Assembly: GCF_047495875.1 (NCBI RefSeq)
Contig: NC_092463.1
Coordinates: forward strand, 36,211,724 to 36,275,723
From: Pithys albifrons albifrons
Lineage: Eukaryota; Chordata; Aves; Passeriformes; Thamnophilidae
DNA: 64,000 bases
Direction of reading: 5' to 3'
The position numbers and the translations under genes are program-made. Numbering within the stretch: position 1 is the first letter of the stretch; every line of letters starts with the position of its first letter. Positions 16,811 to 54,140 of this stretch are shown in pieces. Under the pieces are notes generated by a model. That model was not told where the DNA came from. It made no database searches and saw nothing but the letters and a program-made list of their open reading frames with translations.

Positions 16811-16888
16811 AAAGTCAAAAGTTATAATTATGCAAAGGCTTAATGCCCAAAGTCAAAAGTTATAATTATGCAAAGGCTTAATGCCCAA
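16811..16888. repeat. 38-bp perfect tandem duplication
   Basis: The block AAGTCAAAAGTTATAATTATG and its continuation to TTAATGCCCAA occurs twice in a row, at 16811-16850 and 16849-16888. The period is 38 bp with no mismatch. Two exact copies suggest a recent duplication. Confidence 0.97.
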
Positions 16889-19925: not shown

Positions 19926-20601
19926 GGAGAGTAACTTAGTTTGAGGACAGAAACTGTGTGAGACAGTATCATCACATTTCCTCAAAGTCCCAAAACAATA
20001 CTGGAGAGTCAGGTAATGTTATGAGGGATCCTCAGCATTACTCATTCACAGTGTTTGAAGGAAGAGGGTTCCTGACAGCACTCTCTAAATTCATTTCCTA
20101 ATCTGTCCCTTTCCAAATCACATGTGACTTCAGGGATGTGCTTGTCTAAGGGAAAAGTTTGGAAAGCCAGGACTTTATGAGAATTAGTGAACTATAAAGA
20201 CAGGTGAATGTGTGAGGGACTCGCACCCAGGGCCTGCTGTGCTGTGTTCTCACAGTAAACCCTGATGAGTTTGGCTTTGTAGGTGTTGCAGCCAACAAGA
20301 AACCCTCTGGTAGGGAGAGGCACTCCAGGGATTTGGGAACAGCATGTGTTGATAGCGAATGGGGGGACTCCAGAAATGGTGAGGTTGTTGTCTTGCTTTA
20401 ATTTTAGAGAATTAAAGCGTGTGCTGGACAAACATCCTCCTGCCCTGCTGCAAGAAGAGGATGTAGCACCTCAGCAGGAGTCAGGCCCTGGGAGAGGGAA
20501 AAAAAGGTTTGAAGGGGGCAGGGGATGACCCCAGGGTTGCTAGAGGTGAGCCTGGGGATGGTGTGCCTGAGGTGGGGCAAAGTGCTGACAAGTTGGGAGA
20601 G
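19926..20601. other. Spacer between CR1 and SINE fragments
   Basis: No gene or clear repeat is seen. The segment becomes G-rich from about 20480, next to the SINE fragment. Confidence 0.45.
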
Positions 20602-20817
20602 GGAGCTCAGCAGGGTCAGCCCCAGTCAGTGCTTGGATGAGAGACCTCCTGGGAATACCGGGGGCTGTAGGTTCTAGTCCTGAGGACTTCACTGTCACCG
20701 TCCAAGCTCGCTCGGCCGTGGCAGATGAACCTGAGGAGTTAAAGGGTGGAGCCACTTCTGCGTGGGGAGAGCCCTGCCCAAAGCTCCGTTTGCAAAGCCT
20801 GGCCATGATGATGATGA
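20602..20817 (+). mobile_element. 5'-truncated SINE: 5S-rRNA-like segment, body and (ATG)n tail
   Basis: The fragment starts inside a 5S rRNA-like region. GCTCAGCAGGGTCAGCCCC, CTTGGATGAGAGACCTCCTG and GGGAATACCGGGGGCTGTAG track the second half of 5S rRNA. The body that follows shares CTGAGGACTTCACTGTCACC, CTCGGCCGTGGCAGATG and GGGGAGAGCCCTGCCCAAA with the full-length copy at 52815-53184. It ends in GGCCATGATGATGATGACATGG, an (ATG)n simple repeat. There is no tRNA head, and I find no target-site duplication. Confidence 0.85.
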
Positions 20818-20869
20818 CATGGGACATGGATTGTCACAAACCAAGCATGCTAAAGTCTGGACACAGCCA

Positions 20870-38582
<17,713 letters not shown>

Positions 38583-38628: not shown

Positions 38629-43537
<4,909 letters not shown>

Positions 43538-51247: not shown

Positions 51248-52814
51248 GTTTTACTCAGTTTGGCTTTCACACTTGAAACTAATCTCTGCCCAGCTAGCCT
51301 TTCCCCTCCTCCCACTTTCTTAGTCATGATTTCAGTATGTAGCTTCTTGATGTTGTTTTGTGTTAGCAGACCTGGAGCCTGTTAGTTTGAAAAGTTCTCT
51401 TTTCAAAAGACCTTTCAGGCTTTCTTAGTGATCGTGAATGTCACCACCTACACTGAGGAAGAACGCATGAAGATGATGTGCATTGAACAAAAGTTTGAAG
51501 ATAAATCAAAAGTCTCTGTAAATTAGGTAGAAAGATACATCAAAATCCATTTTGACCTTTAAATGTTAAAGTGAAATAATACAAAGTTCAAAAATGCCAA
51601 AGCTGTTTGCCTGTGCAGCTTTAATCTTCAAGTGCATACAAGGGTTTTTTCCCCAGAATGTGTTTATATTTGTGTTTTTCTCAGAGGACACTGCCTCTGT
51701 CAATCCTTGAGGTGGACTTGGCTTAGTGATAAACTGGAGCTGTGTAGGAAGGTCTTCTTGTGTTTCTGTAATCTGGGCTTCAGTTATTGCAGAAGGTGGT
51801 GTTGGTGAGTAAAGGACATGGAAAGAAAAACATGTTGTCAGTGTTAACTTTGCTGCCTTGAAGAATTGCACTTAAATGGTGCTTTTGCTAAGTAGTTGCA
51901 CTTGATAATTAGGATGTAATGTGGTAATTCAGATATTTACATTTCAGTAGACTAGTCACTGTTCTTTACTTCATGGTGGTTGACTATGATCTGATTACCA
52001 GAATTGCTGTGTTGTGAATGTGGATTTTTGTATGCTGATGTGTAGACTAGAAAAAATGACTTTCACGAATAGACACCCAGAATTAGTGGGTGGTTTTGAC
52101 CTAGTATGTCAGGATTCATACTGTCTTATTGAGTGTGTTTTACTTGCTCTGTACTTCAAGTATGAGAGCTATAGAGAAATCCTTGAAGAAATTAGGCAGT
52201 TATTAAAATAAAGCTGCATATTAAACCACAAGAGAAATGTATTGAATTCTTGCCAAAATACACCGGAAAAGAAGTGTGATTTATTTGTGCCTAGAATTGT
52301 AAAACAGTTGTGGAGGAATGAGGAGAAATGAGCAATCCCACAGGTTCCCTGAAAATACAGGAAAGGACTGAATTAAGGATGCCTTTAACTTTGGGTGTTT
52401 TGGTAAGGAAATGCTTGTAACTTGAGTGTTGATGTTAGTGTATCTCTTCATGTAGTTTCTTAGCTTTCACTTAGTAGCCTGTTATTTGTGGATGGAATTA
52501 CTCTTCTTATCTGCAGTCTTGATTGCTGGGCCATGGCAGTCAGACACAGCCGAAGTAGGTTGCTGTAGGTTGGTACTTCCTGTAGACCAGCATTAGGATG
52601 TTTGCTGGTAAGTTTTGAAAGCTTAAATGCAGCCATGTTGTAACTCGAACTGTGCTGAAGTGAACATGTGCTACTGTGACTGATCTTTCTGCCATTAAAA
52701 AAGGGCATTGCTCTCTCTGTTGGGTTATTTTTGTGCTTTGTTTTGGGGGATTTTTTTGGTTTGGGTTTTTTGTTTGACACATCTCTTGCTTTTCTCACTT
52801 TAGTAACTTGGCTA

Positions 52815-53184
52815 TGGGACGGTCCCGTGGTGTAAAGGAGAGCACTCTGGACTCTGAATCCCAAGGACCTGAGTTTGAGTCTCAGTGGGACCGTCCCCTG
52901 GCAGTTCAATGCCTCCCTGCCATCCCATCCCGTCAGATCCCGGATGCTCAGCAGGGTCAGCCCCGGTTAGTACCGGGGGCTGTGACAGTCCCGAGGACTT
53001 CACTGTCACTGTCCAAGCTCACTCGGCCGTGGCAGATGGACCTTGGGACTTAAACGGTGGGGCCAGTTCTGCACACGCTGTGCCTCACCTGAAAAATCCA
53101 CTGCGCAGGCTGGAAGGGCACCCACGTGGGGAGAGAGCCCTGCCCAAATCTGCATTCGCGAAGTCTGCCCATACATACATACAG
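52815..53184 (+). mobile_element. Full-length composite SINE: tRNA-Gln head, 5S-like segment, body, (ATAC)n tail
   Basis: The 370-bp unit is bounded by the 8-bp direct repeat CTTGGCTA (52807-52814 and 53185-53192), the mark of a retrotransposed insertion. In order it has: a 6-bp leader TGGGAC; a tRNA-Gln(CUG)-like head (52821-52892); a linker; a 5S rRNA-like segment (about 52920-52985, containing CCCGTCAGATCCCGGATGCT and CAGCAGGGTCAG); a body with no host homology that I know (about 52986-53170); and a tail of ATAC repeats (53171-53182). The body is shared with the fragment at 20602-20817. It lies sense in PCNX1 intron 6. A simple-repeat tail argues for an RTE-like mobilising LINE. No protein is encoded. 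Confidence 0.88.
52821..52892 (+). pseudogene. tRNA-Gln(CUG)-like SINE head
   Basis: The 72-nt segment aligns along its whole length to eukaryotic tRNA-Gln, with the anticodon loop CTCTGAA giving CUG. The acceptor stem GGTCCCG/TGGGACC pairs at all seven positions with one G-T pair. The T-arm CTGAG/CTCAG is perfect. The anticodon stem CTGGA/TCCCA has lost two outer pairs, and the T-loop reads TTTGAGT with the invariant C56 changed to T, which also alters the Pol III B box. Because it is embedded in a SINE with a target-site duplication, I treat it as a retroposon promoter head and not a working tRNA gene. Confidence 0.85.
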
Positions 53185-54140
53185 CTTGGCTACCAAGCTG
53201 TGACTTCCTGTCAATATTGTGATTCTCCTCTTGTACTGACTTCATGTCAGGTTTTTTTTCTTCTCCTTCCCTTGCCTGGCAAACCTTATTTTCTTTGGGA
53301 CCGATTCATTTGAGCTCTCTAATGCTCTGCATTCAAATTGGCAGGAGCTTCCTTGGCTCAGGAGGAAGACTTTCAGATTGTAGACCCATCATGAAGCAGT
53401 CCAAATCTGTAATTGTTCAGACTATGAAGCTTAAGGAGCACAGGTGGATTTGGGGCATATTATATGGACAAATATTTGAATCCCTTGAGTACATACAAAC
53501 TGTTTTTCACATGTTGCTTTATAAGTGAACCAAACCTTTTGTTTGGGGACTTGAAATAGGAAAACCATCTATCCCTACAAAGAAGTTATTTTCTCACTTG
53601 TTCTCAACCCTCCTGCTTCTGTAAATTATATTGTAACTAGTCTAGAATGAGCCACATGTATCCCTTGCTGCTCATGAGGAAAAAAAAAAGGCAACTCTTT
53701 TTGCCCCCTGAAAGATCCGTGATGAGGTTGACCCCAGACCTGTTTGGCAGATGTTAAAAAACTGAAATGATTATGACAACTTTGCTAGGTTGTCTTTTAG
53801 GTTTCTGCTTAAATGAAATAAAGGGTGAGATCAGTCTTGTCTCTTCCTGCCCTGTGTAAAGGGAAGGGACTTGGGACATCCGCCTTCTTTTGCACCCTGG
53901 CTATTTGGATCTTGTGGTAAAAAACAAAACAATAAAAAGCTCTATTCAAGAACAACCCGGAACCACCCCGATTTTTGCAAATAACTGTGTTGTGATCCTG
54001 TCTTGAGGCAGGTTATTTGAACAGTCAGGGCATAAGCTACTTTTGTTATTGCAAGTCAAGTTGATTAACTTGGGGAGGGTCAGAGGGAAGAAAGCAGTCT
54101 TAAGTTACTGTGTACGTAACTAGGATGGGTTCTGATTTGA

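Follow-up and report, generated by a model that had tools for sequence, protein, structure and literature searches.

A probable AviRTE SINE with a tRNA-Gln head stacked in front of a 5S rRNA-derived segment

Introduction

The question raised by this locus is whether a tRNA-Gln and a 5S rRNA-like sequence, lying one behind the other, form the head of a single SINE and, if they do, which machinery mobilized the element and how far such a head has spread. We analysed the whole stretch of 64 kb in which the locus lies (hereafter, the window) and refer to the composite at 52815-53184 as copy 1. The small RNA references used throughout were tRNA-Gln in its TTG form (a mammalian sequence) and in its CTG form, and a vertebrate 5S rRNA. 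AviRTE primers were matched as printed in Suh et al. 2016. The features that we delimited are listed in Table 1.

Results

The composite is enclosed by a single target-site duplication

Our results show that the region from 52815 to 53184 is a real, well-bounded unit: one retroposed unit of 370 bp with direct repeats on both sides. The repeat is an exact octamer, CTTGGCTA, found at 52807-52814 and again at 53185-53192, and constitutes the target-site duplication (TSD) that the initial annotation had described around a single insertion of this length. Apart from the TSD pair, the + strand of the window has the octamer once more (62110), and no recurrence of it was found inside 52815-53184. When 400 random boundary pairs were taken with a slack of ±8 nt, an exact repeat of at least 8 bp was present in about 1% of them. 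The tRNA starts 6 nt inside the single TSD pair that surrounds the composite, and the unit ends in an (ATAC)n microsatellite, so that the ATAC tail reported earlier can be read directly from the sequence. One TSD pair surrounds the tRNA, the 5S segment, the body and the tail together, which supports the insertion of the composite as a single unit and, with it, the earlier proposal of a tRNA-then-5S SINE moving as one piece.

Table 1. Coordinates of copy 1, its flanking duplication and the related copy 2 within the window
Feature	Position	Strand	Evidence
5′ target-site duplication CTTGGCTA	52807..52814	.	exact repeat of 53185-53192
Leader TGGGAC	52815..52820	+	last 5 nt pair with 5 nt starting at the discriminator position
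tRNA-Gln(CTG)-derived head	52821..52893	+	ARAGORN, Rfam RF00005 46.1 bits, A/B boxes
Linker between tRNA and recognizable 5S	52894..52923	+	B-box-like AGTTCAATGCC at 52903
5S rRNA-derived segment, nt 29-78 and ~102-114, box C deleted	52924..52983	+	alignment to vertebrate 5S
Body between AviRTEint-F/-R sites, very probably AviRTE 5′-UTR-derived	52990..53116	+	2 mismatches to each primer
Remainder of body	53117..53169	+	alignment to copy 2
(ATAC)n microsatellite tail	53170..53184	+	sequence
3′ target-site duplication CTTGGCTA	53185..53192	.	exact repeat of 52807-52814
Copy 2, 5S-derived segment, nt 47-117, box C present, no tRNA	20601..20671	+	score 87
Copy 2, AviRTE-derived body	20675..20804	+	AviRTEint-F exact at 20679; AviRTEfull-4R (3 mismatches) at 20794 to 20812, into tail
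Copy 2, (ATG)n tail	20805..20816	+	sequence

The element begins with a tRNA-Gln

ARAGORN called a tRNA-Gln(CTG) at 52820-52896, and the Rfam tRNA model RF00005, whose gathering score is 29, gave 46.1 bits over 52821-52893, this being the sole above-threshold Rfam match in the 64-kb window. The tRNA-Gln(CUG) head read by eye from the letters is thus recovered by both programs; Rfam marked two non-standard pairs in its fold. The head is identical to the reference Gln-TTG at 59/71 positions and to the reference Gln-CTG at 58/71, with 3 gap positions. Its acceptor stem, GGTCCC/GGGACC, fits the Gln-TTG reference, and its anticodon is CTG.

Promoter boxes were scored against assumed A-box and B-box consensus sequences (GGTTCRANNCC for the B box). 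The A box at 52828 shows 0 mismatches to its consensus, a perfect match of which there are 29 in the whole window. The B box of the tRNA itself (52872) is off consensus and ranks below the top three B-box matches found in copy 1; the highest-ranking one lies in the linker that follows the tRNA (AGTTCAATGCC at 52903, 1 mismatch). Judged from these motifs and from the fold, copy 1 carries a putative internal RNA polymerase III (pol III) promoter taken from a small RNA gene.

Before G1 of the tRNA stands a leader of 6 nt, TGGGAC. The last five of these (GGGAC) can form five Watson-Crick pairs with a trailer, GTCCC, that runs from the discriminator position on, extending the acceptor stem to 12 bp; the background of 5-bp pairing at this leader/trailer spacing is 100 of 63910 window positions. 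The extension may be the scar of a snap-back of the cDNA during tRNA capture, or it may be due to chance, and it could shield the RNA against tRNA 3′ processing. The pairing is a clue worth noting and does not prove any mechanism.

The 5S rRNA-derived segment of copy 1 has lost box C

Downstream of the linker, 52924-52973 aligned without gaps to nt 29-78 of 5S rRNA, with a score of 55 when the maximum reached by 200 shuffles was 30. The match picks up again as TACCGGGGGCTGT (52971-52983, 5S nt 102-114), and the 5S rRNA-like segment that the initial annotation had placed behind the tRNA is therefore upheld. The two parts are separated by a deletion of 26 nt in copy 1, which can be written as a loss of nt 76-101 or, equivalently, of nt 79-104, since its ends share TAC. 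We take box C of the 5S promoter to be nt 80-97, and this is the box that the deletion removes.

We also considered whether copy 1 contains the whole of the 5S rRNA, and had to reject its first part. Indeed, the alignment of nt 1-33 was equalled by 1364 of 2000 shuffles and by 227 of 2000 random pieces of the window, and nt 1-27 were not recognizable in copy 1 (6/27 identical without gaps). Rfam did not list a 5S match in copy 1 even when E values up to 10 were allowed. The linker of about 30 nt (52894-52923) has no significant likeness to the 5S start or to tRNA-Gln. Read as a collapsed second tRNA, it gave a weak result against the reference Gln-TTG, with 54/1000 shuffles and 81/1000 random window pieces scoring as well; compared with the tRNA of the element itself it was equalled by 237/1000 shuffles and 327/1000 random window pieces. 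As a patchwork of the remaining element (with free gap extension) it came down to a few short pieces, and 28/1000 shuffles and 27/1000 window pieces did as well. We claim none of these origins for the linker.

A second, headless copy shares the 5S segment and the body

A blastn search of the unit against the window returned one relative, in three pieces from 20605 to 20806, which we call copy 2. The 64-kb window hence contains the 5S-AviRTE part twice and the tRNA part once. Copy 2 is headless and begins at 5S nt 47, with a score of 87 for its 5S segment (shuffle maximum, 26). It retains 5S box C with 2/18 mismatches, and here Rfam does list a 5S match, of 15.2 bits and E 3.4, under the gathering score of 38. 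In the part of the 5S rRNA that both copies have kept, five departures from the 5S sequence are common to the two, which argues for common descent of their 5S-AviRTE part. On the other hand, copy 2 says nothing on whether its source carried a tRNA, because it is 5′-truncated at 5S nt 47.

The bodies of the two copies diverge by 12.2% over 82 sites and by 18.8% over 48 sites, and about 50 nt of copy 1, including the AviRTEint-R site, are missing from copy 2. The tails differ as well, copy 2 ending in (ATG)n and copy 1 in (ATAC)n. Around copy 2 the longest TSD candidates measured 5 bp, and Pfam found no domain in the ORF that lies over this copy.

The body points to the retrotransposon AviRTE

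Matching of the published primers placed AviRTE landmarks in both copies. AviRTEint-F, which lies in the 5′ UTR, matched copy 2 with 0/21 mismatches and copy 1 with 2/21. AviRTEint-R matched copy 1 with 2/19 mismatches and had 9 mismatches in copy 2, which misses that stretch. The AviRTEint-F and -R sites are the best in the 64 kb and, in copy 1, they are correctly oriented and 127 bp apart, vs 126 bp published. AviRTEfull-4R found its best site of the window at the end of copy 2 (3/19 mismatches) and was not significant in copy 1 (9/19), so that the 3′ end of AviRTE is matched in copy 2 only. The stretch of copy 1 from 53117 to 53169 aligns to its counterpart in copy 2, the end of which carries this match to the 3′-end primer.

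The remaining primers gave no landmarks. AviRTEfull-1F was rejected as being at chance level: it has 5 mismatches in copy 1, a fit that the window offers 5 times, and 6 in copy 2, a fit offered 20 times. For primers full-1R, 2F, 2R, 3F, 3R and 4F, even the best sites in either copy have 7 to 11 mismatches; this is what SINEs devoid of an ORF would give, these six primers presumably lying in or near the ORF of AviRTE.

The body of copy 1 is thus very probably derived from the AviRTE 5′ UTR, as judged from two primers (40 nt with 4 mismatches in all) and from the alignment to copy 2. The initial annotation had called this body unique, a description that has to be abandoned: AviRTE 5′-UTR sequence is found in it, and the window holds a second copy at about 20600-20816. 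The 5′-UTR fragment that is a trait of AviRTE-mobilized SINEs is present, AviRTEint-F and -R standing 127 bp from each other, and the element very probably belongs in the group of AviRTE-mobilized SINEs of Suh et al. 2016. Pattern searches with the AviRTE-type body gave 0 hits in viral contigs (three patterns) and in a collection of prokaryote contigs (one pattern), outcomes that have no bearing on birds.

The order of the head parts is the reverse of that in AmnSINE1

AviRTE was found in seven bird lineages in a 2016 survey, and the SINEs that it mobilizes are described as having a common bipartite tail, made of 5′-UTR and 3′-UTR fragments, joined to differing heads: tRNA-Glu in ManaSINE1, 5S in GymnSINE, 28S in MeloSINE and GC-rich sequences in BuceSINE and ManaSINE2 (PMC4844689). 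These SINEs, the 5S-headed GymnSINE among them, were published and submitted to Repbase in 2016 (PMC4844689). As a consequence, the suggestion of a lineage-specific and possibly uncatalogued family is tenable only in part: it may stand for the tRNA-then-5S arrangement, and it falls for the 5S-headed AviRTE SINE as such.

GymnSINE, of the antbird lineage, is the closest to our element, being alike in the 5S-derived part of the head, in the AviRTE 5′-UTR body and, through copy 2, in the AviRTE-like 3′ part (PMC4844689). Nevertheless, by its description GymnSINE has a 5S promoter (PMC4844689), whereas copy 1 has a tRNA-Gln in front and has had 5S box C deleted. AviRTE would place the host in one of the seven bird lineages of the 2016 survey, provided that this list is still valid, and a 5S-headed AviRTE SINE would in itself point to antbirds. 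ManaSINE1, of manakins and tyrant flycatchers, combines a tRNA head with an AviRTE tail as here, but its tRNA is tRNA-Glu (PMC4844689) and it is not known to carry a 5S segment, whereas the present element has tRNA-Gln and 5S.

AmnSINE1 and the DeuSINEs also bring 5S- and tRNA-derived parts together within one SINE. The order is nonetheless the opposite: the AmnSINE1 consensus is given as 5S promoter, tRNA region, Deu-domain and tail (PMC3234267), which agrees with the contrast drawn in the initial annotation, and this order of 5S first and tRNA second was not found in copy 1. Furthermore, these SINEs are tabulated with a CR1-type tail (PMC3747384), and the tail here is RTE. The same table pairs the 5S-headed Ped-1 of the springhare with BovB, a LINE of the RTE clade (PMC3747384). 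Ped-1 and the 5S SINEs of fruit bats resemble our element in being 5S-headed, but they are mammalian and associated with a different LINE. Fruit-bat SINE variants mixing tRNA and 5S parts exist. A tRNA gene joined to a 5S gene is also met outside retroposons, in the dicistronic tRNA-5S genes of Yarrowia lipolytica, which are host genes; these were reportedly described by Acker et al. in 2008, with TFIIIA-independent 5S expression according to the title.

Among avian SINEs, PittSINE and TguSINE1 are passerine elements mobilized by CR1, with heads of tRNA-Asp or tRNA-Ile and CR1 tails ending in AUUCURUG (PMC5729268). The corresponding ATTCTRTG repeat is absent from our element, the tail of which is (ATAC)n. 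PittSINE did acquire a new tRNA head, but there the head was joined to the CR1 tail (PMC5729268), whereas here it is stacked on another pol III head. Overall, the element is an unusual and informative variant of the known AviRTE SINE group and no new kind of element; it is the order of its head, tRNA before 5S, that is unusual.

Proposed origin and life cycle of the stacked head

We consider it highly probable that copy 1 is an AviRTE SINE with a stacked tRNA-5S head that was inserted as one unit. Its head would consist of two stacked pol III genes, tRNA-Gln first and the 5S rRNA-derived segment second. Transcription by RNA polymerase III would start from the tRNA-type A and B boxes, and the transcript could span the element, since neither copy contains a TTTT run, the first T run downstream of copy 1 being at 53252. 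The AviRTE reverse transcriptase would then recognize the AviRTE-derived end of the RNA, and target-primed reverse transcription would yield a new copy with a microsatellite tail and a TSD.

As to how the head arose, the most likely course is that an older 5S-headed AviRTE SINE, similar to the GymnSINE of antbirds, had a tRNA-Gln added at the 5′ end, probably when the reverse transcriptase switched templates. Such a switch has been proposed for PittSINE, the avian SINE that gained a new tRNA head (PMC5729268). Once a tRNA promoter stood upstream, the 5S promoter would have become expendable, and the loss of box C in copy 1 fits this expectation. According to a view cited in PMC8010984, 5S promoters rely on upstream signals more heavily than tRNA promoters do. 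On that view, capture of a tRNA would rescue a 5S-headed SINE, which offers a testable idea on why 5S-headed SINEs are few.

AviRTE was passed horizontally between filarial nematodes and some birds, and the heads of its SINEs are very different across bird lineages (PMC4844689). A tRNA stacked on a 5S segment would show the replacement of one head by another in mid-course, with the new promoter in before the old one is lost.

How far has the stacked head spread?

How widely the stacked head occurs is a question apart from the identity of the element, and it is on this question that the next readings differ. It is quite possible, if short of an even chance, that copy 1 is a one-off chimera: the reverse transcriptase, at work on the RNA of a 5S-headed AviRTE SINE, would have jumped to a tRNA-Gln transcript, and the product would never have multiplied. 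This agrees with the single tRNA-bearing copy seen in the 64-kb window, a template switch would account for the one TSD around the composite, and PittSINE, a known avian head switch, is explained likewise (PMC5729268). The divergence of the tRNA part argues the other way. Indeed, 12 of its 71 aligned positions differ from the reference Gln-TTG, where half the distance between copies 1 and 2 would lead one to expect 6-9%. The excess has a binomial P of 0.001-0.03, or of 0.006-0.15 when CpG-related sites (judged by eye) are left out. The result leans slightly towards propagation before insertion, but the test is a weak one, since a mammalian sequence served as reference tRNA and the number of sites is small.

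Propagation before insertion would suit a true multi-copy family of avian SINEs, undescribed so far, in which tRNA-Gln precedes a 5S-headed AviRTE SINE, a reading that we find tenable but doubtful. Under it, and just as tentatively, the element would have passed from a 5S-type (type 1) to a tRNA-type (type 2) pol III promoter and then lost box C, and copy 1 would be a two-promoter SINE caught in transition. In the open-access literature, judged on titles and the opening lines of abstracts, we saw no tRNA-then-5S AviRTE SINE; the name GymnSINE turned up in one paper there.

It is unlikely, on the other hand, that the composite simply shows what a catalogued AviRTE SINE such as GymnSINE normally looks like at full length, with an arrangement that is already known. 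GymnSINE does combine a 5S-derived promoter with the bipartite AviRTE tail, parts that are present here too (PMC4844689), yet the figure legend of that work gives it a 5S-derived promoter alone while naming tRNA-Glu for ManaSINE1 (PMC4844689).

Two further alternatives concern the identity of the element itself. Two independent insertions, with a retropseudogene of tRNA-Gln integrating directly in front of a 5S-AviRTE SINE already in place, are very improbable given that a single TSD pair encloses everything from tRNA to tail and that CTTGGCTA is not repeated within the unit. Least credible of all is that the resemblance arose by chance, or that a functional tRNA gene happens to lie next to repeats with which it has nothing to do: ARAGORN and Rfam do accept the tRNA fold, but the TSD, copy 2 and the AviRTE primer sites tie the parts together as a single retroposon, and the two non-standard pairs and the off-consensus B box speak against a working gene.

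The element probably lies in an intron of PCNX1

A frame of 573 codons at 41819-43537 (+), a large exon, belongs to pecanex-like protein 1 (PCNX1), as seen from its similarity to named vertebrate proteins; the 120 matches listed include no named bird. A plausible start codon of PCNX1 lies at 21546. Copy 1 probably sits in an intron of this gene, in sense orientation, and its presence or absence at this and similar loci could serve as a phylogenetic marker. Pfam found no domain in the PCNX1 exon or in the ORF at 21515-21841, the frame of which differs from that of the PCNX1 start.

At the other end of the window, the minus-strand frame at 1483-2136 encodes an SH3 domain whose closest relatives in the PDB are those of the mixed-lineage kinases MAP3K10/11. 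It is probably the first exon of a mixed-lineage kinase on the strand opposite PCNX1, and this kinase is probably MAP3K9, a name given on the assumption that MAP3K9 is the neighbour of PCNX1.

The sequence that follows copy 2, at about 20840-21075, resembles a presumed CR1 LINE 3′ end. Two tandem repeats were also recorded: a perfect duplication at 16811-16888 (38-bp unit, 2.1 copies, 100% matches), and a GC-rich repeat with a 35-bp unit at 21127-21232 (3 copies, 92% matches), which lies within CpG-rich sequence ahead of the putative PCNX1 start.
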